Positions 47,899-63,119 of a stretch of DNA of 64,000 nt are shown in pieces. Where the stretch lies: the NCBI RefSeq assembly GCF_037201815.1, contig NZ_CP147407.1, positions 2,984,723-3,048,722 on the forward strand, in the 5' to 3' direction. The first letter of the stretch is position 1. Each line of letters begins with the position of its first letter. The position numbers were made by a program, and so were the translations under genes. The notes under the pieces are model-generated. The model ran no database searches. It was not told the DNA's origin and was given only the letters and a program-made list of their open reading frames with translations. The DNA comes from Metabacillus sp. FJAT-52054. GTDB taxonomy: Bacteria; Bacillota; Bacilli; Bacillales; Bacillaceae.

Positions 47899-47927
47899 TT
47901 GTAAAATGGAATGGTTTCCTTTAATAT
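47899..47927 (+). promoter_or_regulatory. Sigma-A promoter of the Zur-controlled flavoprotein gene
   Basis: TTGTAA (47899-47904), 17-bp spacer, TAATAT (47922-47927). The Zur box begins at the next base. Confidence 0.55.
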
Positions 47928-47948
47928 AAATCGTAATTGTTTCGTTTT
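47928..47948. promoter_or_regulatory. Zur box between ycgR-like and flavoprotein genes
   Basis: 21-bp site beginning AAATCGTAAT and ending TTTCGTTTT, 17 of 20 defined positions matching the Bacillus Zur palindrome (AAATCGTAAT-N-ATTACGATTT). It directly follows the flavoprotein -10 element and could also control the divergent permease pair. Confidence 0.75.
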
Positions 47949-47965
47949 AAAGAAAGGAGGATCTT

Positions 47966-49141
47966 ATGTTTGACTGGATTATTATTGGAGGCGGCATACA
48001 AGGTATATCCGCTGCTTCCTTTCTTATAGAAAGCGGGAGATTCAGCAGTAAAGGCATTAAAATTATGGATCCTCATTCAGAGCCTCTTGCTAATTGGAAA
48101 ACATGCACGTCCCTTATCTCCATGCCTTATTTGCGTTCTCCCTCTGTTCATCATTTAGAGGCTGATCCATTCGGGCTGCAGAAGTATTCAAAAAAAAAGC
48201 AAGATTCATTATGTTTTTATGGACGCTATAAACGCCCCTCTCTTTCGATATTTAATGAACACTGCGATGAACTCATCAAAAAATTGAATGTAAAAGATTG
48301 CTGGATAAAAGATGAGGCAGTCTCCATAACCAAAAAAGAGACAGGATGGCAGGTTGAAACAAAAAGCACCGGACGCTTTCACACAGCAAGAGTCATTTTG
48401 GCGTTAGGGATTGGAGGGCAGCCTCATATTCCAGAATGGGCGAGGAATTTCAGGGAGAGCGATGACGAAGAAGTCTATCACGTATTTGATCAGCACCTTC
48501 CTCCTTTTGAAGAATTAAAAGAGCCGATTACTGTCGTAGGCGGAGGAATTACCGCTGCTCATCTGTTAATTAAACTTGCTCAATCTTTCCCCGGAAAGGT
48601 CACCCAGGTTTCACGTCATAAAATCCGGATAAAAGATTTTGATAGCGATCCAGCTTGGATAGGAGATAAAAACCAATCCAGTTTCAGAAAGATTTCTGAT
48701 TACACGATCCGCCGTAAAAAAATAAAAGAAGCCCGGCACAGAGGGACAATGCCCAGGGAAATCGCTCTTAAGTTAAATCGTTTGAAGACAGATCGAGTAA
48801 TAAAAATACTAAACTCGAACATTCAGGGGCTAACGAAAAATAAAAACGGCTTCTACGAGATGCAGCTGGAATCGAGTCCTGCCCCTGTATCCGCAGGAAC
48901 GATTTTAATGGCAACCGGTTTTGACAGCCAGCTTCCCGGTCAGCAGCTTTTGAAGCCTTTAATAAAAAATAAAAACCTTCCATGTGCTCCCTGCGGGTAT
49001 CCAATCGTTTCAAATAAATTAGAATGGGCTCCGGATTTGTTTGTAATGGGCGCACTGGCGGAGCTTGAAGTTGGTCCCGTTGCGAGGAATATTACAGGAG
49101 CCAGGCAGGCTGCTGAAAGAATTGCTTCTATTTTTGCGTGA
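47966..49141 (+). CDS. FAD/NAD(P)-binding flavoprotein, Zur-associated
   Basis: 391-residue two-dinucleotide-domain protein resembling the N-hydroxylase/monooxygenase group (SidA/PvdA, CzcO). N-terminal FAD motif WIIIGGGIQGISAASFL and second NAD(P) motif ITVVGGGITAAHLLIKLAQ (about residues 190-210); C-terminal MATGFDSQLPG typical of these folds. AAAGGAGGATC ribosome site. Substrate unknown. The Zur box 18-38 bp upstream indicates expression under zinc starvation, so it could alter a zincophore or a thiol or substitute a zinc enzyme (inference). Confidence 0.82.
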   Translation: MFDWIIIGGGIQGISAASFLIESGRFSSKGIKIMDPHSEPLANWKTCTSLISMPYLRSPSVHHLEADPFGLQKYSKKKQDSLCFYGRYKRPSLSIFNEHCDELIKKLNVKDCWIKDEAVSITKKETGWQVETKSTGRFHTARVILALGIGGQPHIPEWARNFRESDDEEVYHVFDQHLPPFEELKEPITVVGGGITAAHLLIKLAQSFPGKVTQVSRHKIRIKDFDSDPAWIGDKNQSSFRKISDYTIRRKKIKEARHRGTMPREIALKLNRLKTDRVIKILNSNIQGLTKNKNGFYEMQLESSPAPVSAGTILMATGFDSQLPGQQLLKPLIKNKNLPCAPCGYPIVSNKLEWAPDLFVMGALAELEVGPVARNITGARQAAERIASIFA

Positions 49142-49271
49142 AATGTTTTTGACATACTTTAGCGGTTCTTACGATTATTATATATTTCTAATCTTAACTT
49201 TCCTCTATTTGTATGATTTTGCTGGTGCAGAGTAAGCTGCTCCCCGCCAGAAGAACTTAGTTCTGTCCTTC

Positions 49272-49292
49272 AAATCGTAATAATTACTATTT
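49272..49292. promoter_or_regulatory. Zur box upstream of zagA-like gene
   Basis: AAATCGTAAT-A-ATTACTATTT, one difference from the Bacillus Zur palindrome. It ends 23 bp before the TTG start. A candidate promoter (TTGACA at 49149, GATTAT at 49173, 18-bp spacer) is about 95 bp upstream, so a second promoter nearer the box is possible. Confidence 0.85.
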
Positions 49293-49315
49293 AAACCTTA
49301 TAAGGAGTGTACAAA

Positions 49316-50311
49316 TTGACTATGCTAATACCTGTTACGGTTCTCAGCGGATATTTGGGAGCTGGGAAAACGACATTATTAAATCATTTGCTGAACAATC
49401 ATGAGGGAAAGAAAATTGCGGTGATCGTTAATGATATGAGTGAAGTAAATATTGATGCAAGTTTAGTGAAACAAGGCGGTTTTTCCAGAACGGGAGAAAA
49501 GCTGGTAGAAATGCAGAATGGCTGCATTTGCTGCACATTGCGGGAGGATTTACTCATCGAAGTTGAAAAACTTGCCAAGGCCGGTGACATTGATTACATT
49601 GTGATTGAATCTTCCGGTATTAGCGAGCCCATACCCGTTGCTCAAACCTTCACTTATTCTGATGAAGAAACAGGGATCGATTTATCAAAAATCTGCCGGC
49701 TTGATACCATGGTAACTGTTGTAGATGGAAATCGCTTTTGGGATGACTATGCTTCCGGCGACAGCCTTCTTGATCGTAAACAAGGAACGGATGATCAGGA
49801 TACCCGGGAAGTGATTGATTTGCTTATTGACCAAATCGAATTCGCTAATGTCATTTTGCTCAATAAGATCGATTGCCTTCAAAAAGAGGACCAGACCGAG
49901 CTCAGCGCCCTGCTGCGAAAGCTGAATCCTGAGGCAAAAATCCTGCCTGTCTCCTATAGCAAGGTCTCCCTTTCAGAAATTATGGATACAAGGCTGTTTG
50001 ATTTTGAGAAAGCGAGCCAGGGGGCTGGCTGGATAAAGGAATTAAATGAGGAGCATGTACCTGAAACGGAGGAGTATGGAATATCATCGTTCGTTTATCG
50101 AAGGAAAAGGCCGTTCCATCCCGCGAGATTTATGAATTGGCTTGAAAATTGGCCGCTTGAGATTGTAAGAGCTAAAGGCTTTTTTTGGCTTCCTACGAGA
50201 AACCATATGGCTGGACTCATTTCACAAGCAGGCAATTCCATCATGATTCAGGGAGCCGGCGAGTGGGTAGCTTCCTATCCGGATAAGGAAAGGGAAGGGA
50301 AGCAGCGATAA
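49316..50311 (+). CDS. zagA: ZagA/YciC-like CobW-family GTPase, C-terminally truncated by frameshift
   Basis: 331 residues as read here; intact relatives have about 400. COG0523 zinc metallochaperone GTPases deliver zinc to FolE-type targets under Zur control. Motifs: Walker A GYLGAGKTTLLNHLL, the metal site NGCICCTLREDL (about residue 66-72), NKID (about 182), and the C-terminal domain FHPARFMNWLENWPLEIVRA. TTG start 8 nt after AAGGAG. After SYPDKEREGK the frame ends early, but the rest of the family's C-terminus continues in the -1 frame (next entry), so one base has probably been lost near 50297-50302. Confidence 0.88.
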   Translation: MTMLIPVTVLSGYLGAGKTTLLNHLLNNHEGKKIAVIVNDMSEVNIDASLVKQGGFSRTGEKLVEMQNGCICCTLREDLLIEVEKLAKAGDIDYIVIESSGISEPIPVAQTFTYSDEETGIDLSKICRLDTMVTVVDGNRFWDDYASGDSLLDRKQGTDDQDTREVIDLLIDQIEFANVILLNKIDCLQKEDQTELSALLRKLNPEAKILPVSYSKVSLSEIMDTRLFDFEKASQGAGWIKELNEEHVPETEEYGISSFVYRRKRPFHPARFMNWLENWPLEIVRAKGFFWLPTRNHMAGLISQAGNSIMIQGAGEWVASYPDKEREGKQR

Positions 50312-50508
50312 TAGAAGATCCGGATTTATTAGTCAAATGGGATGAGGAGTTTGGTGACCGCATGACGGAAATGGTATTTATCGGACTCCATTTTAATCAG
50401 GATAAACTGATTCAATCACTGGATCTCTGCCTTCTCTCCGATAAGGAGATGAATTCAGATTGGACTTTGCTCCAAGATCCTATCCCTCCGTTCACCATAC
50501 AGGATTAA
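50302..50508 (+). pseudogene. Out-of-frame C-terminal part of the zagA-like gene
   Basis: The -1 frame reads AAIIEDPDLLVKWDEEFGDR, then MTEMVFIGLHFNQDKLIQSL and a D-rich tail ending PPFTIQD-stop, which is the normal C-terminus of YciC/ZagA proteins (KWDEEFGDR...VFIG). No start or ribosome site precedes it. Joining it to the upstream frame restores a product of about 400 residues. No canonical slippery heptamer is visible. Confidence 0.8.
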
Positions 50509-50524
50509 TGATTGACATCCCTAT

Positions 50525-50561
50525 AAAAAATCCGCGAGCCTGATGGGCTCGCGGATTTTTT
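50525..50561. terminator. Bidirectional terminator between the two CobW genes
   Basis: AAAAAATCCGCGAGCC-tgat-GGGCTCGCGGATTTTTT; strong stem with A and T runs, between convergent genes. Confidence 0.92.
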
Positions 50562-51465
50562 ATAGTTCTGGAGTAAAGTCATCACCTGTTCCGATTAAGA
50601 TAACAGCCGTCTCTTCTGCTGTTCCGCTTATAGCTTCTTGTTCCATTATTCCTGAAGCATACTGAAAGGAGTAAGCCTGTCCCCCTTCCACCGATACGAT
50701 TCCTTTTGCTCTAAGCAAACCAGGTTTCGCTTTCAACCGCTCTTCCAGCTCTCGGATCGTCCACTGGGCCGGAGAAATCCTGAATGTTTTAATGGCCGTT
50801 CCATGGTGATGCAATGCACCCCTTGCCTCTCCAATTCTGCTCCTTTTTTTTTCAAGCTCAGAAAATGAGACATCAGCATAAATGCTTTCAATAATAGACG
50901 TTTCAGACGAAACCATCTTTTCCAGTTTCCTGCGGATCTTATTTTTTTTATGATCCTGAATAAGATCTACCTTATTCATTAATAGCAAATCCGCTGTTTC
51001 AATCTGTTCCTTCATCAGCATTCTGATTTCCTTAGAACTAGTAAAGATGCTCTGATATTCTAAAAAATGAGCAGCGTCTGCAATGCCTATCATGGAATGA
51101 AGCTCAAATGTACGGCTTATTGAAGGATCCATCAAAGCACTTTTGATTTCAGCTGGATTTGCAACACCTGTTCCTTCAATGAGAAGGACATCGACCGGCT
51201 CATCCGGAAGCTCCCCGGCAATTCTTATGAGCGTTTCAGATAGATCCCCTTTAATGGTACAGCAGATGCAGCCATCCAAGAGCTCATACATAGTTTCTCC
51301 CTGAAACAAATGAGCCTCCAGGTTCACTTCCCCCAGCTCGTTTAAGATCACGGCGGTCTTTTTCCCTCGCTCTTTTAATCGTTCAAGCATCTTCAGCAAA
51401 ACCGTTGTTTTACCGCTGCCAAGAAATCCGCTTATCACATATACAGGAATCGCCTGCACTTGCAT
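50560..51465 (-). CDS. CobW/COG0523 family GTPase (zinc metallochaperone-like)
   Basis: 301-residue GTPase. Walker A GFLGSGKTTVLLKML, metal motif DGCICCTIKGDL (about residue 70), NKVD (about 165) and a metal-binding-like HHH in ARGALHHHGTAIKTF (about 228). Shorter than the zagA-like product and without its tail. Start at MQVQAIPVYVISG; GGGGG precedes it closely and a GTG two codons later is an alternative. The promoter overlaps a Zur box. It may compensate for the frameshifted paralogue. Confidence 0.87.
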   Translation of the reverse strand: MQVQAIPVYVISGFLGSGKTTVLLKMLERLKERGKKTAVILNELGEVNLEAHLFQGETMYELLDGCICCTIKGDLSETLIRIAGELPDEPVDVLLIEGTGVANPAEIKSALMDPSISRTFELHSMIGIADAAHFLEYQSIFTSSKEIRMLMKEQIETADLLLMNKVDLIQDHKKNKIRRKLEKMVSSETSIIESIYADVSFSELEKKRSRIGEARGALHHHGTAIKTFRISPAQWTIRELEERLKAKPGLLRAKGIVSVEGGQAYSFQYASGIMEQEAISGTAEETAVILIGTGDDFTPEL

Positions 51466-51487
51466 CCGCCCCCTTTTTGATTTCCTC

Positions 51488-51508
51488 AAATCGTAATATT
51501 AACGTTTT
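51488..51508. promoter_or_regulatory. Zur box upstream of second CobW gene
   Basis: AAATCGTAATA then TTAACGTTTT, three differences from the Bacillus Zur palindrome. It overlaps the spacer and -10 of the minus-strand promoter, a repressing position. Confidence 0.75.
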
Positions 51509-51518
51509 GCTTTGTCAA
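51490..51518 (-). promoter_or_regulatory. Sigma-A promoter of second CobW gene
   Basis: TTGACA (51513-51518), 17-bp spacer, TACGAT (51490-51495) on the minus strand, overlapped by the Zur box. Confidence 0.65.
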
Positions 51519-51520
51519 AT

Positions 51521-52414
51521 TCATTGCCGGGAAAATTTCTTCCTGTTCATAATCCTTTTATGCTCCACTCCAGGGTGCGTGGTATTTCTTCTACTAGACA
51601 GCATGATACAGGACCCTACTATTAAAACACCTCCTGCAATCGTATAGATGTCAGGCACTTCAAACCAGAACAAAAGGCCCCATAGAGCATTAAACACTAT
51701 TCCGATGTACCTTGTTACTTCCACTACTACCACATTTTCATGCGTGAAAGCTTTCGTTAGAAAAATTTGTCCAAGCAAAGAAACCACTCCTATGCAAATC
51801 AAAAAAAACAATTCTGATGAGGATGGAATAACAAACTGATTCCACATTAAAGGAATGGAAATGACGGCTGCCGTCGCCAAAAAGTAGAATACAATTTCAT
51901 AGGAATGATGTTTTGAACTTAAATACCTTATAGAAGTAGCTGCCCCTGCTGCGAAAACAGCACTTAAAATACCTGCTAAGGCGTAAATGGAATAAGTACT
52001 GTAATCAAATGGTTTGATCACCAGCATCCCCCCTAAAAACGCGATTGGGATGACCATCCACACTGTTTTGGAAAGCTTTTCTTTAAGAAACATAAAGGCA
52101 AACAGAATGGCGAAGAACGGCGACAAATGAGCCAGTATACTTGCATCCGTAAGAGGCAAATTTGCAATGGTATAGAAATAGGCGATCAAATATAATGCTC
52201 CCAATGCCCCCCTTAGTGCAAGCATCGGAATGCCTGTTTTTGAAAAAGTTACCTTCTTCTTTTTCATCATAAAGAATATTAAAATGGCACCTATCGCGCT
52301 TCTGAAAAAAACGATTTCACCGATAGGAATATTTAAGCTTACAGCCTTAACAAAAGCATTCATGACACTGAAAATGAGAGATGACAAAACAGCCATGAGA
52401 ATACCTCTATTCAT
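51521..52414 (-). CDS. EamA/DMT transporter, probable opine-metallophore exporter (CntI-like)
   Basis: 297-residue drug/metabolite transporter with ten membrane segments in two EamA repeats (MNRGILMAVLSSLIFSVMNA; second repeat from about residue 148, YALAGILSAVFAAGAATS). Start after GGGAGGGG; its ATG overlaps the cntM stop (ATGAATAG). In Pseudomonas aeruginosa the EamA protein CntI exports pseudopaline, whereas S. aureus uses the MFS CntE. Being the last gene of cntL-cntM-, it is the obvious exporter of the product (inference from context and family). Confidence 0.85.
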   Translation of the reverse strand: MNRGILMAVLSSLIFSVMNAFVKAVSLNIPIGEIVFFRSAIGAILIFFMMKKKKVTFSKTGIPMLALRGALGALYLIAYFYTIANLPLTDASILAHLSPFFAILFAFMFLKEKLSKTVWMVIPIAFLGGMLVIKPFDYSTYSIYALAGILSAVFAAGAATSIRYLSSKHHSYEIVFYFLATAAVISIPLMWNQFVIPSSSELFFLICIGVVSLLGQIFLTKAFTHENVVVVEVTRYIGIVFNALWGLLFWFEVPDIYTIAGGVLIVGSCIMLSSRRNTTHPGVEHKRIMNRKKFSRQ

Positions 52415-53729
52415 TTTGGCGCCCCTCCCATTCTGATACAATCATCAGTATTTCCTCTGCAATCGAAGTCTCCCTCGGAATAATCAAGTGTTTATCCACT
52501 TGATGGTAATCACAAAATTCCTCCACTCGTTTTTCGAATAGCTGAATGAGTTCTTTTGCAGCTGGCATATCAGTTTTTGCATACCGGGCGAGACCCGTCA
52601 GCCTTTTCAAATTTCTATAATCCTCAAACGGAATACGCGGAAACCTCCATCTGCCATCCGGTTCTTTTGATACCTTTGGGTAAGGCACTTTTGAAAATTC
52701 AAAATACCGTCCGTTCCGGTCCGGCTCCGAATGCGGATCATTTAATAAAGAGGCATACCTGACATACAGATGGTACTCTTGTTTGGTCTGTTCAGAGGAT
52801 AGAAATCCTTCGATGTCCTCTCTGGAAAGTGACTCCGGGAGCACTGGATAATTATCATCATTTAAAAATTGGAGAAGATTAACCGGTTCAATATTAAACC
52901 TTGTAAATAATCCATTCAACTCTTTCCAAAGCTTAACCATAATCTGAATCGTATCCTTTGTAATGGGTCCTTCTGGAAATAGTTTATAGAGCGATTTATG
53001 AGATGCATTCACAGTAAGTATTTCATTCAAAGAAAAGTCATTCATGAAAAAAGGAGGATGCACAAAGGTTGTAATGCTTCTTGACTCCGCCTCCAAAGGA
53101 TCCTTTACAAGAACACATGTAACTTTTATTTCTTCCAGCAAATTTTGAATGGCTAAAAGAGAAGGACTGTTTTGCATGCTCGATCCAGCATAAATTTTTT
53201 TCTTGGCAGCCTTGGTCAGAGCAATTGTAAGCATATCCTTTTCTTTTAGCTTAGTTGCCGCATAGTAGGATGAAAGACTGATGACCTCTGCATTCAAATT
53301 AACTTTTTTCAAATACCCTCTGACCAGCAAATTCGAACCCGCATTAGGTGAGATCAAAACGATTGTTTTGATCCATATAAGGGCTGCTGGTTTCATGTTT
53401 TTTAATATCGATAAATAAGTATCACTCGGAGTGCATAAAATCAGGGTTTCCCATTGTCCCTCTATGTATGGATAGCCCTCGTAAAATGCTTCCAGAACAG
53501 CCGAACCGGCAAAATCTTTTAAGCGTTCAAGCTCGGCCATTGCTTGAATGGTATAGTTATTTTCCATAAGCTCTGCAGTAAACGCCATTGATCGGGATCC
53601 TTCACGGTTTGCCATTCCAATTGGATTTCCCCATTGGCTGTTCAAAACGACCGCGGTCTGGACAGCTGCAGGACCCGCTCCCGCAATCAAAATCCGGCCG
53701 AATTTTGAATGTACCCTCAACTCATTCAT
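52407..53729 (-). CDS. cntM: Opine metallophore dehydrogenase CntM
   Basis: 440-residue NAD(P)H-dependent enzyme that reductively condenses the CntL product with a 2-oxo acid. Matches staphylopine dehydrogenase: RILIAGAGPAAVQTA near the N-terminus, then VHPPFFMNDFSL, YKLFPEGPIT, VNLLQFL and YVRYASLLNDPHSEPD. At the position of S. aureus Asp150 (STYLGD) this protein has Ala158 (SSYYAA); Ala there is linked to alpha-ketoglutarate use and Asp to pyruvate use. The start overlaps the cntL stop (ATGAATGA), with AGAGGA upstream. A longer in-frame start lies inside cntL and is rejected. Confidence 0.92.
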   Translation of the reverse strand: MNELRVHSKFGRILIAGAGPAAVQTAVVLNSQWGNPIGMANREGSRSMAFTAELMENNYTIQAMAELERLKDFAGSAVLEAFYEGYPYIEGQWETLILCTPSDTYLSILKNMKPAALIWIKTIVLISPNAGSNLLVRGYLKKVNLNAEVISLSSYYAATKLKEKDMLTIALTKAAKKKIYAGSSMQNSPSLLAIQNLLEEIKVTCVLVKDPLEAESRSITTFVHPPFFMNDFSLNEILTVNASHKSLYKLFPEGPITKDTIQIMVKLWKELNGLFTRFNIEPVNLLQFLNDDNYPVLPESLSREDIEGFLSSEQTKQEYHLYVRYASLLNDPHSEPDRNGRYFEFSKVPYPKVSKEPDGRWRFPRIPFEDYRNLKRLTGLARYAKTDMPAAKELIQLFEKRVEEFCDYHQVDKHLIIPRETSIAEEILMIVSEWEGRQNE

Positions 53730-54546
53730 ATGTATAAGTCCTCTCTGAACTGCCCGAGGACTGATGACAGCCTGCTTTTTCAATGAGGATTGTGTCATAA
53801 AAGCCAGGTTCATCTTCATTGATTAATGTTTGAATCCATTCTTTAGAGCCTGATGGCATATATGGATAATTAAAAACAGATTTCAAGCCATTTCCATACC
53901 TCAATAAGATTTTCACATTGCTTTTTGCATGCTGATACAGATCCTTCAGTACACCTTTTTTATCCTCTACCAGTGAAGCAATGACGATATGTGTTGCTTT
54001 TTTAAGAAAGGGCAGAAGAGCTAGCTTTTCACTTGTAAACTCGGCTTGGACACCTGCTGTAAGCGCTATTTCCCGTGCCATACGGACTGCTTCCTGGTCG
54101 ATATCAACACCAACAACTTCTGACCCGGTTTCCTTAGCGATGGTAAGTGTTGTGACAGGAAATGCTCCTGACCCGATAATAAGCACTTTAGAATCTCTGT
54201 TTATACCAAACGCAGTCATTTCCTTCATTACGCTGCCAGACAACTGACTGATATAAGAGGAAATATTCGAGACCCCTGCATGAGATGAGTGGTACTTCTC
54301 TATATCGCATACAGCCTGTACAGATGCTTTTCTCAAACGGTTTGTATATTTGATTACCTCTTCATCTTTTTTGCAAGCCTCCCACTGTTTTTCATATTTG
54401 CCGTTTTGTATGAAAGCAGGAAGTTCATCCAGTTTCTTTTTCAAAAGCTCAAAGCAATCCGGGCACTCTTTTGCGAAACCTAAAAGTTCATTCATTTCAT
54501 ATTCTTTTACTTTCAAAGTTAATAAAATCTCGTATTTATCCTTCAA
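53722..54546 (-). CDS. cntL: Nicotianamine synthase-like enzyme CntL
   Basis: 274-residue enzyme expected to move the aminobutyrate group of S-adenosylmethionine onto histidine, the first metallophore step. The methyltransferase-like fold is visible: VLIIGSGAFPVTTLTIAKET (about residues 125-145), VVGVDIDQEAVRMAREIA (about 150) and ILLRYGNGLKSVFNYPY (about 215-232). The TTG start follows AAGGAGG at 8 nt. Length matches S. aureus CntL (271). First gene of the cntL-cntM-exporter operon, with Zur box and promoter immediately upstream. No cntK histidine racemase is in the locus. Confidence 0.9.
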   Translation of the reverse strand: MKDKYEILLTLKVKEYEMNELLGFAKECPDCFELLKKKLDELPAFIQNGKYEKQWEACKKDEEVIKYTNRLRKASVQAVCDIEKYHSSHAGVSNISSYISQLSGSVMKEMTAFGINRDSKVLIIGSGAFPVTTLTIAKETGSEVVGVDIDQEAVRMAREIALTAGVQAEFTSEKLALLPFLKKATHIVIASLVEDKKGVLKDLYQHAKSNVKILLRYGNGLKSVFNYPYMPSGSKEWIQTLINEDEPGFYDTILIEKAGCHQSSGSSERTYTYE

Positions 54547-54565
54547 AGCAATCACCCTCCTTTTT

Positions 54566-54586
54566 AAATCGAAATAATTACGATTT
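54566..54586. promoter_or_regulatory. Zur box of the cntL-cntM-exporter operon
   Basis: AAATCGAAAT-A-ATTACGATTT, one difference from the Bacillus Zur palindrome. It starts 9 bp downstream of the -10 element on the minus strand, so bound Zur would block transcription. Confidence 0.88.
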
Positions 54587-54594
54587 ACCAAGGA

Positions 54595-54623
54595 ATCATA
54601 TCATGCTCTCGAATAACCGACAA
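54595..54623 (-). promoter_or_regulatory. Sigma-A promoter of cntL
   Basis: TTGTCG (54618-54623), 17-bp spacer, TATGAT (54595-54600) on the minus strand. Confidence 0.65.
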
Positions 54624-54761
54624 GAGCCTGCATTTCCTAATTTAAACGGACGATTTACCCCAGCAATTTTCATCTTTCTCTTTCTTGCAAATCATCACCG
54701 TGGCACTTCTTTCTAAATCCTCCTATGCAGCATTCGGTCTCTACCGAAGTTAAAATTGCAA

Positions 54762-54790
54762 TTGACTCTCCTAAAATATAATGCTAAAAT
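54762..54790 (+). promoter_or_regulatory. Sigma-A promoter of the cntABCDF operon
   Basis: TTGACT (54762-54767), 17-bp spacer, TAAAAT (54785-54790). Two Zur boxes follow. Confidence 0.68.
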
Positions 54791-54799
54791 CCAACTTAT

Positions 54800-54820
54800 A
54801 AATCGTAATGGTTACTATTT
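54800..54820. promoter_or_regulatory. Zur box 1 of the cntABCDF operon
   Basis: AAATCGTAAT-G-GTTACTATTT, two differences from the Bacillus Zur palindrome, at the expected transcription start. Confidence 0.82.
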
Positions 54821-54822
54821 AT

Positions 54823-54843
54823 AAGTCGTAATGGTTACTACTT
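54823..54843. promoter_or_regulatory. Zur box 2 of the cntABCDF operon
   Basis: AAGTCGTAAT-G-GTTACTACTT, a near copy of box 1 placed 23 bp downstream. The tandem layout should tighten repression. Confidence 0.75.
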
Positions 54844-54957
54844 GTATAACTTTTGAAAGGAGTCTGAATTTTAATACATACGAATTTACAACTTTCTAAC
54901 AAGTAAAAACGATTGTCAGCTGTACCTAGTTTCATAGGATCAAAGGAGGAGCACTAC

Positions 54958-56487
54958 TTGAAAAAAAAATATAGTCTTGGCCTAATCATTAGTCTTTTAT
55001 TGGTATTTTCAACTGCATGTACGTCTCAGCAATCACAAGGTAACGAGAAAAAGAAAGAGCTTACCTTTCTGTCTAACTTCCCCAGTGAAACACTGGATCC
55101 TCATTTGAATTTCACTCCCGTCAGAGCAGGGATCAGTGAGACACTGATCAAAGTGGACGAAAACCAGGAGCTTGAGCCATGGCTTGCAGAAAGCTGGGAA
55201 TCTAAAGATAATGGCTCGACATGGGTTATGAAAATAAAAGAGGGCATTCATTTTCAAAATGGGAAAAAAGTAGATGCCGAAGCTGTTAAAGATTCTCTCC
55301 AACGGAATATTGAGGTCAGTGAAGCCATGAAGGCGTCCCTGAAAATTAAATCGATGGAAGCAGATAAACAAATTCTGACAATCATTACAGAGAAGCCGCT
55401 CCCTCAGTTTCCTTCTGAACTGGTTCATCCCAACACAGCCATCATAGACAGCAAAGCTGAAAACATCGAGGAAAAACCTGTAGGAACCGGGCCTTTTAAA
55501 ATTCAGTCCTTTGATGCTAACAGCAGTCTCAAGCTCCAAAAGAACAGTAATTACTGGGACGGAAATGTGAAACTTGATCAGGTAACGATGATGTTTAATG
55601 AGGATGCGAATGCAAGGACAGCCGCCCTTCAATCAGGTGACGCAGACATCTCCTATCGCCCTGCCCTCGAAAGCATGGAAGCGCTAAAAAAAGATCCAGC
55701 CATTAAAACGGATTTCGTAACGAGCCTCAGGGATCAATTTCTCTTATATAATTTTAAAAATGAGCTTTTACAGGATCCAAACGTAAGAAAAGCGTTTGAC
55801 GTTCTCCTTGATCGCAATGAAGTTGCACAAAAAACACTGGCTGGACAAGCCTCTCCTGCCGAAGGACCTTTTGTGCCGGACTCTCTCTTTTCGCCTGAGT
55901 ACGCAAAGAAGGAATTTAGTATACGTTCAGCAAAAAGCTATCTTAGCAAAGCTGGAATTGACATGAAAGATGGAAAGGCATTTAATGATGGAAAACCGCT
56001 GTCCTTAAAAGTCCTGACCTATTCCTACCGTCCAGAGCTTCCATTAATGGCCCAGCTTCTTCAGGCCAATGCAAAAGAGCTTGGACTGGATATCGAAATC
56101 CAGACAGCGGAGAATATTGATGAATATATGGCTGAAAAAGACGACTGGGACATCGCTACGTATAGTATGATTTCTGACCCCCGTGGAGATGCCGCCTACT
56201 TCTTTAATGCTGTTTACATGCCAGGCGGAGCCATGAATCACAGTAATTTACAGAATAAAGAATTAACAAAGGCTATTGAAAAGCTTAATGAAACAGTTGA
56301 TAAAGCAGAGCGTGCCAAACTGGCTAAAGAAGCTTCAGCAATCATTGATAAAGAAACCCTGCATTCCTTTATCGTTCACCCCAAAAATTTCGTAGCGTAT
56401 AAAGATGACGTCTTGAATTGGGAAACTTCCAAAAGTGAGTATTACATGATTACTAAAGACCTTGATGTGAAAACTAAAAACCAATGA
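54958..56487 (+). CDS. cntA: Opine-metallophore ABC transporter, substrate-binding lipoprotein CntA
   Basis: 509-residue SBP_bac_5 (nickel/peptide type) lipoprotein. TTG start after AAAGGAGG (8-9 nt). The signal peptide LGLIISLLLVFSTAC ends in a lipobox Cys at about residue 20, anchoring it on the outer membrane face. Family stretches: SETLDPHLNFTPVRAGISET, PWLAESWESKDNGSTWVMKI and VGTGPFKIQSFD. Captures the metal-opine complex for CntBCDF. A long leader of about 160 nt with two Zur boxes precedes it. Confidence 0.9.
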   Translation: MKKKYSLGLIISLLLVFSTACTSQQSQGNEKKKELTFLSNFPSETLDPHLNFTPVRAGISETLIKVDENQELEPWLAESWESKDNGSTWVMKIKEGIHFQNGKKVDAEAVKDSLQRNIEVSEAMKASLKIKSMEADKQILTIITEKPLPQFPSELVHPNTAIIDSKAENIEEKPVGTGPFKIQSFDANSSLKLQKNSNYWDGNVKLDQVTMMFNEDANARTAALQSGDADISYRPALESMEALKKDPAIKTDFVTSLRDQFLLYNFKNELLQDPNVRKAFDVLLDRNEVAQKTLAGQASPAEGPFVPDSLFSPEYAKKEFSIRSAKSYLSKAGIDMKDGKAFNDGKPLSLKVLTYSYRPELPLMAQLLQANAKELGLDIEIQTAENIDEYMAEKDDWDIATYSMISDPRGDAAYFFNAVYMPGGAMNHSNLQNKELTKAIEKLNETVDKAERAKLAKEASAIIDKETLHSFIVHPKNFVAYKDDVLNWETSKSEYYMITKDLDVKTKNQ

Positions 56488-57419
56488 TAGTTAAAAGAAT
56501 AAGTGAATTCATCCTTTTCCTGCTGATTTTATCCGCTGTGAGTTTTGTTTTGATCCAAGCAGCACCGGGAGATCCAGTAAGGTCTATGATGAAGACAGAT
56601 GATACAGCCATATCAGCAGAACAGATGGATAGCCTCAGAAAGGAATTGGGATTGAACGATCCCATACTTCTTCAATATGGCAAGTGGCTGATCCGCTTTT
56701 TTCAGCTGGATTTTGGCCATTCCTATATGACAAAACAGCTTGTCATAGATGAGCTATTGAAAACATTCCCTGCCACTCTCGAATTGACATTTTCTTCACT
56801 TTTGGTGATGACTGTCATTGCTGTTCCTCTTGGAACGCTTGCCGCTCTTTATAAGGGAAAATGGCAGGATCATCTTAGCCGGATATTTGCTCTTGCAGGG
56901 GCTGCTGTTCCAAGCTTATGGCTGGGGCTTCTTTTTATTCAGTTATTTTCAGTGAAATTAGGCATCTTCCCTTCGATGGGCAAGGGATCAATATCCCACC
57001 TCATCTTGCCTTCTTTGACTCTAGGGATTGCTATGGCAGCAGTGTATGTGAGAATTCTGAGATCCAGTCTGCTAGAAAGCTTGAGCCAGGATTTTATCCG
57101 TTCTGCTAAGGCAAGGGGACTGTCAAACTCCCGAATTTTCATTCATCATACTTTCCGTCATAGCCTTACACCTGTGATTACGATATTTGGGATTAGTCTT
57201 GGAAGTCTTTTGGGAGGCACTGTTATTATTGAGGTTTTGTTTGGGTATCCCGGAGCAGGAAAGCTCGTGGTAGATGCGATTCTAAAAAGAGACTACCCAA
57301 TTATTCAAGGATATATCTTATTAATGGGAGCATTGGTCTGTATGATTAACATCTTGGTCGATCTTTCCTACCGGTATATCAATCCGGAATTACGCATTAA
57401 GGAGGCGAATAAAAGATGA
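56484..57419 (+). CDS. cntB: Opine-metallophore ABC transporter permease CntB
   Basis: 311-residue DppB/NikB-type permease with six membrane segments and N-terminal AAPGDPVRSMM typical of this group. The EAA loop is SLSQDFIRSAKARGLSNSRI (about residues 193-212), which contacts the ATPases. The start overlaps the cntA stop by 4 nt (ATGA), so translation is coupled. Confidence 0.92.
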   Translation: MIVKRISEFILFLLILSAVSFVLIQAAPGDPVRSMMKTDDTAISAEQMDSLRKELGLNDPILLQYGKWLIRFFQLDFGHSYMTKQLVIDELLKTFPATLELTFSSLLVMTVIAVPLGTLAALYKGKWQDHLSRIFALAGAAVPSLWLGLLFIQLFSVKLGIFPSMGKGSISHLILPSLTLGIAMAAVYVRILRSSLLESLSQDFIRSAKARGLSNSRIFIHHTFRHSLTPVITIFGISLGSLLGGTVIIEVLFGYPGAGKLVVDAILKRDYPIIQGYILLMGALVCMINILVDLSYRYINPELRIKEANKR

Positions 57420-58225
57420 TGCCATCGCCTCTTAACGGACGGGATAAATTTGGATGGATGCTCGTGTTCATTGCAGCCTTAATGATTGCTTCATTCCTTG
57501 ATCCGGTTGATCCCGCAAAAATCAATATGAGTGACCGTCTTTTGCCTATTAGCAGCGAGCATTTTTTAGGCACCGATCATATGGGCAGAGACTTATTTTC
57601 AAGAATACTGGCAGGAGCACAGAGCACTGTAGGTACCGCTTTTTTGGTTCTGTTTATCTCATTTATTATTGGACTTCCTATAGGCCTCATTGCCGGATAT
57701 GCAGGCGGAATAACAGACCGCTTCTTTATGAGAATAGCCGATGCATTTATGGCATTTCCCGACTATATCATCGCCATTATTTTAACGGGTCTAATTGGAC
57801 CTGGACTGGTTAATTTGATTATGGCCATTGTCATGGTGAAATGGGTGGGATATTCGAGGCTTGTCCGGAGCGTCGTTATTTCTGAAAAAGAAAAAGATTA
57901 TGTTCAGATGGCTAAAATTAATGGGGCCAGTTCAGCTTTGATTATTAGAAAACACCTGCTTCCGCATGTTCTTGGCCATCTACTAGTGATGGTAACGCTC
58001 GACATTGGAAAAGTAATCTTAATGATTGCCTCCCTCTCCTATATCGGACTTGGACCGCAGCCCCCTTCCCCTGAATGGGGAGCCATGCTGAATGAATCAA
58101 AAGCATTTTTTTACAATGCCCCGCAGCTGATGATTATTCCCGGATTAGCCATCATGCTCGTTGTTTTGGTATTCAATTTAATGGGAGATCAGCTAAGAGA
58201 CAAGCTGGATGTTAAAAATCGATAA
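57416..58225 (+). CDS. cntC: Opine-metallophore ABC transporter permease CntC
   Basis: 269-residue DppC/NikC-type permease with six membrane segments. Family stretches: LGTDHMGRDLFSRILAGAQ (about residues 49-67) and the EAA loop KEKDYVQMAKINGASSALII (about 160). Start overlaps the cntB stop by 4 nt. Forms the channel with CntB. Confidence 0.92.
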   Translation: MMPSPLNGRDKFGWMLVFIAALMIASFLDPVDPAKINMSDRLLPISSEHFLGTDHMGRDLFSRILAGAQSTVGTAFLVLFISFIIGLPIGLIAGYAGGITDRFFMRIADAFMAFPDYIIAIILTGLIGPGLVNLIMAIVMVKWVGYSRLVRSVVISEKEKDYVQMAKINGASSALIIRKHLLPHVLGHLLVMVTLDIGKVILMIASLSYIGLGPQPPSPEWGAMLNESKAFFYNAPQLMIIPGLAIMLVVLVFNLMGDQLRDKLDVKNR

Positions 58226-58236
58226 GGAGGAAAGGA

Positions 58237-59043
58237 ATGAATGTCCTAGAAATATCGAATCTCTCTATTCATCATAGAAATCAGAAAATCATCCACAGCT
58301 TAGACCTTGCCATTGAAAAAGGAGATTGGATGGCTGTGGCTGGTGAGAGCGGCAGCGGAAAAACCGTTATGGCCGCTTCAATTGGCAGGCTTCTTCCTTC
58401 TGAATTGACCATTACAGCAGGAACCATTTTACTCAACAGCTTAAACCTGTTAACTATAAAAGAAAATAACCTGCGGCCACTTCTTGGAAAAGAGATTTCT
58501 TATATATTCCAAGATTATAAAGGGGCTTTTACACCTTTCTTGACCATTGGAAAGCAATTTAATGAAATGTTAAAAGCCCATACAGGCGATTCAAAAAAGG
58601 TAAGAAATGAACGGGTATATGAAGCACTGAGGCTAGTCGGACTTCCTGAAGAAAGGGTGTACGCGAGTTACCCCTTTCAGCTTAGCGGAGGGCAGCTGCA
58701 AAGGGCGGCAATCGCAATGGCCATGATCCTGGAGCCGACACTGCTGATTGCAGATGAACCAACCACCGCACTTGACAGCCTCACTGCAGCATCTGTTCTG
58801 AAGCTAATTGAAAAAATGCAAAGGAAAACAAACTGCGCCGTACTATTTATTACTCATGATTTAAGGCATGCGAAAAAATATGCGAATAAAATAGCGATCA
58901 TGCATAATGGAACGATTGTAGAATCAGGATTAAAAACAGCCTTGTTCCATAGGCCTGAGCACCCATATACAAAATCCTTGCTTTCCGCTATTCCCAAATT
59001 AAAAAGCAGTCATCAGGAGCGGCTGATGACTGCTGATTCCTAA
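58237..59043 (+). CDS. cntD: Opine-metallophore ABC transporter ATPase CntD
   Basis: 268-residue ABC ATPase of the OppD/NikD type. Walker A GESGSGKTVM (about residue 38), signature LSGGQLQRAAIAMAMI (about 149), Walker B LLIADEPTTALD (about 169) and switch His in FITHDLRHAKKYA. It ends soon after the HPYTKSLLSAIPKL oligopeptide-family motif, without the usual C-terminal Cys cluster. 11 nt after cntC with GGAGGAAAGGA. Confidence 0.92.
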   Translation: MNVLEISNLSIHHRNQKIIHSLDLAIEKGDWMAVAGESGSGKTVMAASIGRLLPSELTITAGTILLNSLNLLTIKENNLRPLLGKEISYIFQDYKGAFTPFLTIGKQFNEMLKAHTGDSKKVRNERVYEALRLVGLPEERVYASYPFQLSGGQLQRAAIAMAMILEPTLLIADEPTTALDSLTAASVLKLIEKMQRKTNCAVLFITHDLRHAKKYANKIAIMHNGTIVESGLKTALFHRPEHPYTKSLLSAIPKLKSSHQERLMTADS

Positions 59044-59133
59044 AGCTTTCTTTAATAAGACAGGCGGGTTGCTAACAGGGCCTTATTCAAAATCAATCAT
59101 GCTGGATCATACATTTTATTAAAGGAGACTGAA

Positions 59134-59904
59134 ATGGAAATCCTTGCAGCAAGAAAAATTTCAAAGCAATATAACCCCCTTCAAAAAGCTGTTGACGGGA
59201 TATCATTAACGGTCAGAAAAGGCGAATGTGTCGGCATAGTCGGAGAAAGCGGAAGCGGAAAAAGTACGCTCGCCAAGTGTCTTCTCGGACTAGAAAAGCC
59301 CGAACAAGGAGAGATTTGGATTGGGGAAAACCGCCTCAACTCATTAAATAGGAAAACAGTTCGCGCAGTGAGAAAGGACATTCAGGCCGTCTTTCAAAAT
59401 CCTGCTGCATCCTTAAATCCAAAACTAAAAATTATGGATTCATTAATGGAACCCTTGGATATTCAGGAAAGAAATCCGTTTTCCCTTGTACCAAGGAGAA
59501 GAGAGGGCCGGGAGCGCACCGCGGCCGAGCTACTGAATATCGTCGGAATCTCTTCTTCCTATCTTCATCGTTATCCTCATGAACTAAGCGGCGGGCAAAA
59601 GCAAAGAGTAAGCATTGCAAGAGCCATCAGTATACGCCCCTCTCTCATTATCCTAGATGAGCCAACTGCCAGCCTGGATGTCTCTATTCAAGCGAAAATT
59701 CTCAATTTATTGAAGGACTTGCAGGAAAGCCTGGGGATTTCCTATTTATTCATCTCTCACGACTTAGCCGCTGTAAATTTTATGGGCAGCCGCACCCTCG
59801 TCATGAAGGATGGACGGATCGTTGATCAATTTCATAGAGAGGATTTATTTGCAGAGAGCCGTCATCCTTATACGAAAGCCCTGGTGAACGTATTTGAGGA
59901 CTAG
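59134..59904 (+). CDS. cntF: Opine-metallophore ABC transporter ATPase CntF
   Basis: 256-residue ABC ATPase of the OppF/NikE type. Walker A GESGSGKSTLAKCLLGLE (about residue 36), signature LSGGQKQRVSIARAIS (about 153), Walker B LIILDEPTASLD (about 173) and LFISHDLAAVNFMG. Together with CntD it energises uptake. A 90-bp gap from cntD carries no terminator, so it stays in the operon. AAAGGAG site 7-8 nt upstream; terminator at 59971. Confidence 0.92.
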   Translation: MEILAARKISKQYNPLQKAVDGISLTVRKGECVGIVGESGSGKSTLAKCLLGLEKPEQGEIWIGENRLNSLNRKTVRAVRKDIQAVFQNPAASLNPKLKIMDSLMEPLDIQERNPFSLVPRRREGRERTAAELLNIVGISSSYLHRYPHELSGGQKQRVSIARAISIRPSLIILDEPTASLDVSIQAKILNLLKDLQESLGISYLFISHDLAAVNFMGSRTLVMKDGRIVDQFHREDLFAESRHPYTKALVNVFED

Positions 59905-59970
59905 CTTCCAATCACAAAATCTATGGAACTGCTGCTGATTTGCAGAGTACAGCTTAACTCAGCAAACACC

Positions 59971-60003
59971 GAAGGGCATCCTGAATCAGGATGCCCTTCT
60001 TTA
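59971..60003 (+). terminator. Rho-independent terminator of the cntABCDF operon
   Basis: GAAGGGCATCCTG-aat-CAGGATGCCCTTC followed by TTT. Confidence 0.92.
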
Positions 60004-60021
60004 ACCGATGAGGAATTTTCT

Positions 60022-60552
60022 TTATTTTTTCTTCCTGAACATGCTGATCAGGAACACAATCACTAACACCACAAGCACTCCGCCAATTATGATTGGCAAG
60101 GAAGAAGAGGTTTTTTCCTGCTCTGAGGAGGTCTTAGGCTCCTGCGTTTGAGGCTTTTCTTCCTCTTGAGTTTGCGGGGATTTGTCCTCTGCCGCTGCTG
60201 TTTCTCTTTGAACATTGAAGTTCATGGAGTCTTTTACTACATGAGTATCTGCACCGACGATATCCCACTCTACCGTGTAGGAACCATTTTTCAATTCATC
60301 TGGAATCTTTCCTGTAAGCGTACTGCCGTCAATTTTTATATCACTTACAGGCACTTCGGTTTTTCCTTCGTGCAGAAGTATAAATTTGCTTGATTCCTCG
60401 ATTGTTGTATTGAAGGTAAGAGAAATCTCAGGAAGCTTCCCTGTTATCGTTTCTCCCGCTTTTGGTGTTGAGGTTTCCAATTTTGAATGGGCACTGGCCA
60501 CATTACTATTAAATAAAAGTGCTAAAAAAAGCATCAGGGCTATTTTTTTCAT
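60022..60552 (-). CDS. CopC-domain surface protein with C-terminal anchor
   Basis: 176-residue secreted protein. The signal peptide ends NSNVASA-HSKLETS, which leaves His1 free, the first copper ligand of CopC proteins; the second His is in VGADTHVVKD. The CopC beta fold (about residues 22-115) is followed by a Gln/Glu/Pro-rich linker, one membrane helix (IIIGGVLVVLVIVFLISM) and a basic tail, so it stays on the membrane. Lies 40 nt downstream of the PepSY gene on the same strand. Copper binding or delivery is likely. Confidence 0.88.
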   Translation of the reverse strand: MKKIALMLFLALLFNSNVASAHSKLETSTPKAGETITGKLPEISLTFNTTIEESSKFILLHEGKTEVPVSDIKIDGSTLTGKIPDELKNGSYTVEWDIVGADTHVVKDSMNFNVQRETAAAEDKSPQTQEEEKPQTQEPKTSSEQEKTSSSLPIIIGGVLVVLVIVFLISMFRKKK

Positions 60553-60592
60553 TGCTGTTCACATCTCCATTTAGTTTTATAGATTCTCGCTG

Positions 60593-61981
60593 TCAGTTTA
60601 ACCAGGCATTTAAAGGCTTAATCCTTTTGATGAGGAGCCAATCAATCAGAAATACAGCAATGATTGAGATTCCCACCAGCGGCATCACGATTCCCAAAAC
60701 CAGCATGATAAAAAAGACGGTTCTCGTTACTTTTTTATTTTGAGCCGGGGCCACAAAACCCAGCTTGCCATTCGATTTTCTCTTCTTCCACATCACATAA
60801 GAACTGGAGGCAACGACCATAAGGCCGATACATAAATTCAGTCCGATTATCTGGTTAGCGATTCCGAATAAAGTTCCCTCATGAAACGCAATTCCAATGG
60901 AAATAGCTTTAGCCATCCATCCGTAGTCAGCAAACCGGACATCTGTCAGCACCTTCCCGCTGTACTGATCAATATGAAGCGTGGCATCCTTCATTGGATT
61001 CGGATTGGACGCAGCGATCGTATAAACCCCTTTTTTTCCTTCAGGAAGTGAAATGCTGTAAGGCTTTTCAACTTTCTTGTGAGACGCGATTGCCTGGATA
61101 TCCTCAACCGTTAGGGTTCTGCTTCCACTGTCAGAAGCGGGAACTGGCTGATTTTCTGTTGCCCAAGGTACATCTTCTGCTACATCCTTTGTTTTTATGT
61201 CAGATTCAGGGGTTCCCATAAAACTGAATGCAAAGGGAGGATAGCCAGTATTGGTTGCTGTAGCGGCTTTATTAATTTGCTCCCCCATTACCCCTGACCA
61301 TGGAAGGCCTGTTGCAATTAAAACCAGTATACCTAGTGAAAGCCAAAAGGCGGGGACTGCATGCAAATCTCTCCAAAATGTCCTTCCCCTCGCATTAAAT
61401 CTTGGAAGAACCGTTCCCCAAATCGATTGTTTGTTCCGAGGCCACCATATATACAATCCGGTAGCGAGCAAAATGACTGCCCAGCAAGCTGCAAGCTCCA
61501 CAAGACGGTTTGCAGCGGTTCCTCCGACAATAAGCTCACTATGGAGTTTTTTGAAGAGTTCCGTAAATTTTTCCTCGGCTGCTAGAGAACCTTGTATTTT
61601 TCCGGTATAAGGATTTATGTAAACCGATTTTGCCGATACTTTGGTCATCACATTGATTTCAGTCGTTCTTGCAGGATCACCATAGAACTTAATCGCTGTA
61701 ATCGTACTTTCCGGATATTCGTCCTGAACGCGTTTTATTTGTTTTGCTGCCGTTATTTCTTTTCCAGGCGCCTCTTGCTGTACATAATAAAGATCTTTAT
61801 ATAGTACAGATTCAATTTGAGGCTTAAACAAATATACGCCTCCGCTGAATGCTAGAATGATCAGGAATGGTGCAAATATGATTCCAGCATAAAAGTGCCA
61901 TCTCCAAACCGTTTGATAAATAGAGCTTCTTTCTTTTTTACTTTCTTTTTCTTTGCCAGGATCCAACTTCAGAGCTTCCAT
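60593..61981 (-). CDS. PepSY-associated membrane protein
   Basis: 462-residue PepSY_TM protein with four or more membrane segments (WRWHFYAGIIFAPFLIILAF, LVELAACWAVILLATGLYIW, PAFWLSLGILVLIATGLPW and a C-terminal pair) and two extracytoplasmic PepSY repeats (about residues 75-130 and 280-335). Relatives include putative iron-siderophore reductases and YcnJ/PiuB-type proteins; conserved His in WHFYAG, LHSEL, LHAVPA and FHEG suggest haem or metal binding. Operon: His-rich lipoprotein, this gene, CopC-like gene. Confidence 0.85.
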   Translation of the reverse strand: MEALKLDPGKEKESKKERSSIYQTVWRWHFYAGIIFAPFLIILAFSGGVYLFKPQIESVLYKDLYYVQQEAPGKEITAAKQIKRVQDEYPESTITAIKFYGDPARTTEINVMTKVSAKSVYINPYTGKIQGSLAAEEKFTELFKKLHSELIVGGTAANRLVELAACWAVILLATGLYIWWPRNKQSIWGTVLPRFNARGRTFWRDLHAVPAFWLSLGILVLIATGLPWSGVMGEQINKAATATNTGYPPFAFSFMGTPESDIKTKDVAEDVPWATENQPVPASDSGSRTLTVEDIQAIASHKKVEKPYSISLPEGKKGVYTIAASNPNPMKDATLHIDQYSGKVLTDVRFADYGWMAKAISIGIAFHEGTLFGIANQIIGLNLCIGLMVVASSSYVMWKKRKSNGKLGFVAPAQNKKVTRTVFFIMLVLGIVMPLVGISIIAVFLIDWLLIKRIKPLNAWLN

Positions 61982-62005
61982 CCTATTCCCTCCAGCGGTT
62001 TATTC

Positions 62006-62128
62006 CTAAGGCTTTGTCTCCGAATGTACCAGGTGATTTTTATGTTCCTCATGTGAACCCCCTTGGCTGCAACCCGCTGCCGATAAAAAAAGGATGATAA
62101 TAAATGCAGCAAGTCCCAATTCTTTCAT
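62006..62128 (-). CDS. Small His-rich lipoprotein
   Basis: 40-residue secreted peptide. Starts MKELGLAAFIIILFLSAAGC, whose last five residues form a lipobox with Cys20, leaving a 21-residue mature lipopeptide SQGGSHEEHKNHLVH-type tail rich in His and Glu. GGAGGAGATCAC precedes the ATG. It lies 25 nt upstream of the PepSY gene and is the likely first gene of that operon. Metal binding at the membrane surface is plausible; not recognised as a named family. Confidence 0.72.
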   Translation of the reverse strand: MKELGLAAFIIILFLSAAGCSQGGSHEEHKNHLVHSETKP

Positions 62129-62291
62129 GTGATCTCCTCCATCCTTATCTACGCTAATGAATACGTTCCCAATTATAAATTCTTATTTCCATGGGATGAT
62201 GACTCTAAAGAGTGATTTGTATAAGATATCCCTACTGAAATGTGACGAAAATGCTAAAATAGAAGCAACTCTGCTGAAATAAGGTGAAAAT

Positions 62292-63119
62292 TTGACATAC
62301 AAACAAATCAAGTGGATGATCCTAATTCTCCCGACGGCCGCTATCGGTCTATGGGAATATATTAGGCATGCCTTTTTATTACCGTACTTATCGATGGACA
62401 TGGGAAATCTATTAACCCCCGCTATTGTTTTTGCAGCAACCATTTTCTTTCTATTGAAATTATTTTCGATGCTTGAAGGGATCCAGGAAGAATTGAAGAT
62501 GGAGAGGGCAAGAAAAGCAGCCCTGATTGAAAGGGAGAACCTTGCAAGAGAGCTTCATGACGGTGTTGCCCAATCTTTATTTCTTCTTTCGGTAAAATTA
62601 AATAAATTCGGGAAGAAAACAGGCATTGAAAAACATTCTGAATTTCAGGATACGAACCAAACATTGAAAGAAATTTATGAAGATACACGGCGGGCGATTG
62701 AAAACTTAAAGCAGCTGCCTGATCCTGAACTGTTCAGCTGGACAAAATCCATTCAGCAATACTTATCAGAGCTTGAAAAAAACCACTCAATGGAAGTAGA
62801 TTTCCAATGGGACATTAAGGAAGAGAAGCTTTCCGCTAAAGAAAAAATAGAACTTTTTGCTTGTATAAAAGAAGCTGTCATGAATGTGATAAAACATGCA
62901 CAGACAAATAGAGTTTGGATTAGCGGACAGGAATCCTTGAAGGGCTGGACATGTGAAATTCGGGATAACGGAGTTGGTTTTCCAGCGGAGCCTATTAATA
63001 TGGAGAATGGATTTGGTCTGCAGATTATGCAAAGACGTGCTTCGGAAATGAACTGGAGGTTTTCAAAAGAGGAAGGAAATAAAGGAACGAGGATTCTTCT
63101 TGAAAAGGAGTATAAGTAA
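62292..63119 (+). CDS. Sensor histidine kinase, NarL-partner (HisKA_3) type
   Basis: 275-residue kinase. TTG start after AAGGTG. Two membrane helices (about residues 8-28 and 42-60) enclose only a very short outside loop, so it may sense within the membrane or through another protein. Phosphoacceptor His89 in RELHDGVAQSLF; ATPase N-box EAVMNVIKHA and G-box DNGVGFPAEP, then GFGLQIMQRRA. Partner regulator follows with no gap. Divergent from the His-rich lipoprotein-PepSY-CopC operon, which it may control. Confidence 0.92.
   Translation: MTYKQIKWMILILPTAAIGLWEYIRHAFLLPYLSMDMGNLLTPAIVFAATIFFLLKLFSMLEGIQEELKMERARKAALIERENLARELHDGVAQSLFLLSVKLNKFGKKTGIEKHSEFQDTNQTLKEIYEDTRRAIENLKQLPDPELFSWTKSIQQYLSELEKNHSMEVDFQWDIKEEKLSAKEKIELFACIKEAVMNVIKHAQTNRVWISGQESLKGWTCEIRDNGVGFPAEPINMENGFGLQIMQRRASEMNWRFSKEEGNKGTRILLEKEYK

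Follow-up and report, generated by a model that had tools for sequence, protein, structure and literature searches.

A predicted racemase-free opine zincophore locus in Metabacillus, and Zur-box-associated importers in relatives without the synthesis genes

Opine zincophore loci of bacilli with a dipeptide/oligopeptide importer, an EamA exporter and no racemase are described as cluster 5 in the accessible text of Morey & Kehl-Fie 2020 (PMC7438024), which also states both of the prediction rules applied below. Other described systems that bear comparison are the pseudopaline system of Pseudomonas aeruginosa (cntOLMI) and the staphylopine system (cntKLM-ABCDF-E). The locus considered here lies in a stretch of 64,000 nucleotides from Metabacillus sp. 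FJAT-52054 (contig NZ_CP147407.1, positions 2,984,723 to 3,048,722), referred to as the window, and it probably encodes a Zur-controlled, racemase-free opine zincophore system of the pseudopaline type with L-histidine (L-His) and alpha-ketoglutarate as substrates. We infer the product, the metal, the direction of transport and the binding of Zur from protein families, residue classes, boxes and the lack of a CntK match.

In the proposed system, zinc shortage would lead CntL to couple the S-adenosylmethionine-derived aminobutyrate to L-His, and CntM to carry out a reductive condensation with alpha-ketoglutarate; the product would be pseudopaline or a closely related compound. The EamA protein would export the zincophore, an Opp5A/Opp2 ATP-binding cassette (ABC) transporter from a branch annotated as nickel importers would bring back the zinc complex, and the CobW and ZigA GTPases would presumably pass zinc on. 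The genes concerned are as follows.

53722..54546, minus strand: cntL, nicotianamine-synthase-like aminobutanoyltransferase, 274 residues from TTG (profiles, structure match, refined start)
52407..53729, minus strand: cntM, opine dehydrogenase, Ala at the S. aureus Asp150 position (profiles, alignment)
51521..52414, minus strand: EamA/DMT exporter, CntI-like (PF00892, identity to Gram-negative exporters)
50560..51465, minus strand: CobW-type GTPase and putative zinc metallochaperone, preceded by a Zur-like box of its own (profiles, box scan)
54958..56487, plus strand: substrate-binding protein (SBP), Opp5A/NikA lineage (profiles, tree)
56484..57419, plus strand: importer permease, Opp2B type (434 bits, cut-off 350)
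57416..58225, plus strand: importer permease, Opp2C type (357 bits, cut-off 300)
58237..59043, plus strand: importer ATPase (profiles)
59134..59904, plus strand: second importer ATPase (profiles)
49307..50311, plus strand: ZigA-like zinc metallochaperone GTPase (NF038288, 489 bits, below the cut-off of 600)

Profile searches and a box scan confirm the layout given in the original prediction, with cntL, cntM and the EamA gene on the minus strand, a five-gene ABC importer on the plus strand and Zur-like boxes between them. The nicotianamine synthase (NAS)-type cntL directly precedes cntM, and exporter and importer are both at most six genes from cntM. CntM matches the Pfam family Staph_opine_DH (PF10100) with 466.6 bits and the NCBIfam staphylopine dehydrogenase model with 349 bits, below its cut-off of 675. 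Window CntL likewise scores 139.6 bits with the NCBIfam model Sta_opine_CntL, short of the cut-off of 350, and its best match among solved structures is S. aureus CntL (119 bits). The exporter matches EamA (PF00892) with 105 bits and is of the DMT type, as had been claimed. Start codons were chosen by ribosome sites and comparison with relatives; they are TTG at 54546 for cntL, with AAAGGAGGG ahead of it, ATG at 53729 for cntM, ATG at 52414 for the EamA gene and TTG at 54958 for the SBP gene.

The choice of 2-oxo acid is predicted from CntM. The second Ala of its SSYYAATK motif (Ala158, counted from the Met at 53729) aligns, in a region free of gaps, with S. aureus Asp150, and the P. aeruginosa enzyme carries the same motif at the aligned position, with YYAATK identical; alignment with both enzymes therefore agrees with the residue assignment made originally. 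The window CntM scores highest with pseudopaline dehydrogenase (320 bits), followed by staphylopine dehydrogenase (264 bits) and yersinopine dehydrogenase (213 bits). In a set of 21 CntM, made up of that of the window and those of 20 of the 22 other genomes with a CntM match (G006, which has fragments, and G052 were left out), Ala is present in 11 of 11 without CntK and Asp in 10 of 10 with CntK. A larger sample was drawn from 98 neighbourhoods, the window excluded, and gave 91 distinct CntM (99 rows of at least 300 residues, less eight identical ones). A scan of genome contigs with the single window CntM as query found no match, and an alignment query was used instead; 78 of the 98 neighbourhoods come from the best 80 of the 220 places that it matched, and the sample therefore leans towards the window's kin. 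CntK is encoded nearby, that is, within 9 kb, for 43 of the 91 (42 Asp and one Ala); among the 48 with none nearby there are 43 Ala, four Ser and one Asp, the last at L094, where the neighbourhood is cut. Paenibacillus CntM with Ser in the position-150 column occur at L068, L083, L088 and L089 and form one group in the tree. In the CntM tree, CntK loci lie on one side of a branch and the P. aeruginosa CntM is among the racemase-free ones. It is improbable that the window CntM takes another 2-oxo acid to give an undescribed opine: the enzyme forms a lone branch, at most 48% identical to the tree's other CntM, and some of its kin have Ser at position 150, but its YYAATK is the same as in the P. 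aeruginosa enzyme.

The choice of L-His over its enantiomer is predicted from the missing racemase and from CntL. The original prediction noted that cntK is absent from the window, and this extends to the whole genome, in which a genome-wide profile search with the CntK model NF033599 gave no match, PLP (pyridoxal phosphate)-dependent racemases being outside the reach of the models used. The lack of a match is informative because the same model has matches in 11 of 23 CntM-bearing genomes (the window's own is one of the 23, and some bear only pieces of CntM); all 11 score 217-248 bits, below the curated cut-off of 300. The DAP_epimerase family (PF01678) has one DapF in the window's genome, found as two halves, and one sub-threshold protein, which we take to be PhzF-like. 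The main independent support for L-His is provided by the class residues of CntL. In an alignment of 45 racemase-free and 44 CntK-locus sequences, 24 columns divide the two classes strictly; the window was not used in choosing these columns, and the sequences from L094, L054 and L057 were left out. At these columns the window CntL has the racemase-free residue in 21, neither residue in three and the CntK-class residue in none, and the CntL of Arsenophonus and Vibrio are both racemase-free at 11 of the 24 and both of the CntK class at none. A racemase outside the CntK and DapF families could supply D-histidine, making the product bacillopaline. The accessible text of PMC11602996 names histidine racemases, including a PLP-dependent one, that are not part of staphylopine loci, and the P. 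methanolicus locus L087 has the bacillopaline-like combination of CntK with Ala150; set against the CntL residues and a genome with one DapF and no CntK match, however, we consider this product unlikely.

The exporter fits the same division. Identity between the window EamA protein and the DMT exporters encoded in an Arsenophonus and a Vibrio zincophore locus is 52-53%. Among the 48 CntM without CntK, 43 have EamA nearby, three have an MFS exporter instead, one (L073) has neither and one lies in a cut neighbourhood, as against MFS in all 43 with CntK and EamA in none of them. The Paenibacillus loci L075, L084 and L090, with Ala150, a Nik-type importer and an MFS exporter and without CntK, are exceptions to this exporter rule. 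The original claim of a zincophore made from L-His and alpha-ketoglutarate thus stands as a prediction, given no CntK, the Ala of CntM, the class residues of CntL and an exporter 52-53% identical to Gram-negative ones.

The importer had been labelled cntABCDF, a label that its SBP and permease scores do not sustain. The window SBP passes the cut-off of 600 for Opp5A_nikA (NF045468) with 702 bits and scores 119 bits with the CntA model, for which the cut-off is 800 and two controls, L032 and S. epidermidis, score 953 and 930 bits; the importer is therefore of the Opp5A/Opp2 ("NikA") lineage and not CntABCDF. When SBPs were classed by their phmmer score to that of the window (at least 300 bits, or 60-120 bits), a Nik-lineage SBP was found within 9 kb of 42 of the 48 cntM without CntK and a CntA-lineage SBP near 43 of 43 with CntK, one of which (L039) also has an Opp5A-type SBP. 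Opp5A/Opp2-type operons lie upstream of the CntK-type zincophore operon at L033 (the same place as L102) and L039.

The box TCGTAATNATTACGA, which we take to be the Zur box consensus, has nine matches in the window with at most three mismatches, as against 2.8 expected, and none of 100 shuffles gave as many. Six lie near the genes discussed here and are given without strand; the remaining three are far away.

54569..54583: Zur-like box before cntL (1 mismatch)
54803..54817: Zur-like box before the importer (2 mismatches)
54826..54840: second Zur-like box before the importer (2 mismatches)
51491..51505: Zur-like box before the CobW gene (3 mismatches)
49275..49289: Zur-like box before the ZigA-like gene (1 mismatch)
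47931..47945: weaker Zur-like box between an ArsP-like permease and a FAD protein (3 mismatches)

Three Fur-family genes are over the cut-off in the window's genome, and control of the locus through binding of Zur is predicted from these boxes. The boxes favour zinc over nickel for the Opp5A importer. On the alternative reading, to which we give little credence, it transports nickel (Ni-histidine), has nothing to do with the zincophore and is adjacent to it by chance. The importer models and the closest solved structure bear nickel names; S. aureus NikA itself matches the window SBP at only 254 bits. Urease (E below 1e-50) is present in 54 of 150 genomes; it occurs in 24 of the 51 with Opp5A over cut-off and in 30 of the 99 without (Fisher p 0.05, the species not being independent), an association too weak to carry the nickel reading. 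Against that reading are the Zur-like boxes before the importer, the distribution of the two SBP lineages between loci with and without CntK, and 16 of 34 genomes with an Opp5A importer and no CntM that show no urease.

Several points nevertheless weigh against a zincophore made from L-His and alpha-ketoglutarate. The importer family carries a nickel annotation, and the models used would miss a PLP-dependent histidine racemase. Taken singly, the Arsenophonus CntL falls on the CntK side at 6 of the 24 columns and the Vibrio CntL at 3, and both were put to L-His by their racemase-free loci and not by assay; the siding of the window CntL may also reflect ancestry alone and not substrate. The accessible text of PMC7438024 reports that a swap at position 150 of S. 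aureus CntM left both oxo acids similarly preferred, which makes this rule partial, and the window CntM sits by itself on a long branch that the tree does not place firmly.

The importer is more widespread than the synthesis genes. Opp5A is over cut-off in 51 of the 150 genomes, 17 with CntM and 34 without, and a Zur-like box (at most two mismatches, located up to 350 bases before the gene or within its first 60 bases) precedes the importer in 28 of these 34 importer-only genomes as compared with 12 of 233 other genes of at least 200 residues from the same loci and six further loci, an enrichment that the Fisher value of 8e-23 overstates because related species are not independent. In 21 of the 34, a MATE-like gene follows the importer on its strand; four of the 21, and one more in G164, were checked as MatE by Pfam. 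EamA is nearby in three (G003, G088 and G133), and two of these carry the MATE gene as well; by this count 12 of the 34 have neither. Close EamA proteins (E 1e-60) are present in 16 of 199 genomes, 11 of them producers and five without CntM (G003, G088, G106, G133 and G164, where the match contains one stop). The combination of Zur-like box, Opp5A importer and MATE-like gene without CntM is seen at L193, L218, L222, L223, L224 and other loci. At L203 (about 9868-10182) there is a weak CntL-like match (28% over 106 residues, E 1e-4) in or near a 607-residue open reading frame that adjoins an Opp5A importer, and the locus also contains an EamA fragment; the match is possibly another NAS-type synthase. 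L199 and L200 share a set of open reading frames (805, 283, 271-295 and 394 residues) ahead of the Opp5A importer.

These distributions suggest that importer-only genomes use the chelators of other organisms. A MatE exporter is reported for fusobacterial zincophore loci in the accessible text of PMC7438024, and in that of PMC5719457 the loss of CntI impairs the growth of P. aeruginosa except where cntL has been deleted too; on these grounds, importer-only species that keep an exporter may return the emptied chelator. A broader and tentative possibility is that Opp5A of the Bacillales is mostly a Zur-controlled zinc-opine importer, commonly paired with MATE or EamA in non-makers that would live on foreign zincophores and re-export the emptied chelator, and that producers are a minority which readily lose synthesis. 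Cheating on staphylopine by staphylococci is in print with retained uptake, and the accessible text of PMC12709192 makes no mention of a retained exporter. No published link of Opp5A importers to zinc, or of exporters to recycling, was found among the matches listed, which mostly do not cover subscription journals. An importer family publicly annotated as nickel transporters thus carries Zur-like boxes, often with an exporter, in species without synthesis genes, which makes zincophore sharing among Gram-positives and chelator recycling directly testable.

Two relatives suggest how synthesis genes are lost. In G199, a genome labelled as the same species, searches found neither CntM (E 1e-3) nor a close EamA (E 1e-50). 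Its identity to the window is 92-97% over most of positions 4283-45742, and the match resumes at 63721; the intervening island and its further genes are listed here.

45743..63720, no strand: 18-kb zinc/copper gene island, absent from G199 (genome comparison)
46804..47811, minus strand: ArsP_1-type permease, a neighbour in the same island
47966..49141, plus strand: FAD/NAD(P)-binding oxidoreductase, neighbour

A response-regulator gene lies at the right end of the island. At the G199 junction 46 bases are followed by the end of this gene, QLTHYAFKQGLLE, where the window has QLTHYAFKQGLIE (scar at L262 470-640). Because these last codons are kept in G199, loss is the better reading, and a deletion in that genome most likely removed the 18-kb stretch. 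The island was also considered as a recent gain, which is rejected: the 250-300-base end stretches share no exact direct repeat of at least 10 bases, and the window has no tRNA. A short dispersed repeat occurs at window positions 25567-25766, 29710-29891 and 36924-37095, in copies 75-88% alike, and at several G199 sites too.

In G003, of the same genus, the locus (L186) is orthologous (SBP 70%, permease 75%, EamA 73% and flanking regulator 75%), and there is no CntM anywhere in the genome. Between the Zur-like box and the EamA gene is a 25-codon frame, MSLKEKFEFLYSLKVREYEEQGALP, that resembles the start of CntL (L186 8357-8472) and whose DNA aligns with the cntL start region. Seven of ten CntL queries, that of the window included, match it at E 0.003 to 0.39, and chance CntL matches elsewhere in the five loci searched have E 0.43 to 0.95. 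Each match alone is weak, and the frame is read as a cntL remnant because of its position. G003 thus appears to have lost cntLM and kept exporter and importer behind a cntL-like remnant. Both G003 and G199 are drafts (99-100% completeness). The other same-genus genomes G001, G002 and G004 have neither CntM nor close EamA, and in G006 cntM and the EamA gene are present as fragments only.

Importers also appear to have been swapped repeatedly among racemase-free loci. In a tree of 87 SBPs, the ones from racemase-free loci are not grouped together and require eight changes, six of them forced by well-supported branches; the G133 and G088 proteins (EamA, no CntM) were labelled standalone. A single origin of the importers in racemase-free loci is rejected by the approximately unbiased (AU) test (p-AU 7e-5, L085 and L186 not being included in the named set). 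The importer tree splits the CntM clade of L027, L064, L070, L086, L028 and L029 (p 5e-57) and the group of L056, L060, L025 and L076 (p 2e-7), which with L080 and L092 forms one CntM clade. The groups tested were named after the trees were seen, and the trees are quick ones with long branches flagged. Large plasmids in Priestia, Paenibacillus and S. epidermidis carry zincophore loci of both classes (L226, L228 and L248): a racemase-free locus on Paenibacillus pART37, and the CntK-type layout on Priestia pA, where the gene in the racemase position is annotated as diaminopimelate epimerase, and on the S. epidermidis plasmid.

The wider importer pattern is more useful than the single locus, for which the product could be tested with two purified enzymes. 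The make-up had been thought unusual for a Gram-positive; it is that of cluster 5, and EamA, a Nik-lineage importer and Ala with no CntK nearby are combined in 33 of the 91 distinct CntM. The window shares every tested feature of cluster 5, namely a host among the bacilli, cntL directly before cntM, EamA, an Opp-type importer and no racemase, a likeness by description and not by network placement; its CntM is below 50% identical to every relative found, and the network threshold of cluster 5 is about 50% identity. The importer lineage of cluster 5 is not named in the accessible text of PMC7438024, and that of the window is Opp5A/Opp2. The layout is divergent in the window, whereas in all of ten racemase-free loci compared, the exporter and importer genes share the strand of cntLM. 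With P. aeruginosa cntOLMI the window shares the predicted substrates, an EamA/DMT exporter, predicted Zur control and the CntM motif, but its host is Gram-positive, there is no outer-membrane receptor and an ABC importer is in the locus. The staphylopine system likewise has cntL, cntM and an adjoining Opp-type importer; the window differs from it in having no CntK, Ala in place of Asp, EamA in place of MFS and another importer lineage. The window SBP belongs with S. aureus NikA in the Opp5A-Opp2 family by its score (702 bits, cut-off 600), from which the window importer is set apart by its Zur-like boxes and the cntLM-EamA genes beside it. The locus itself is thus an ordinary member of a class mapped in 2020, and its relatives are the more interesting part.

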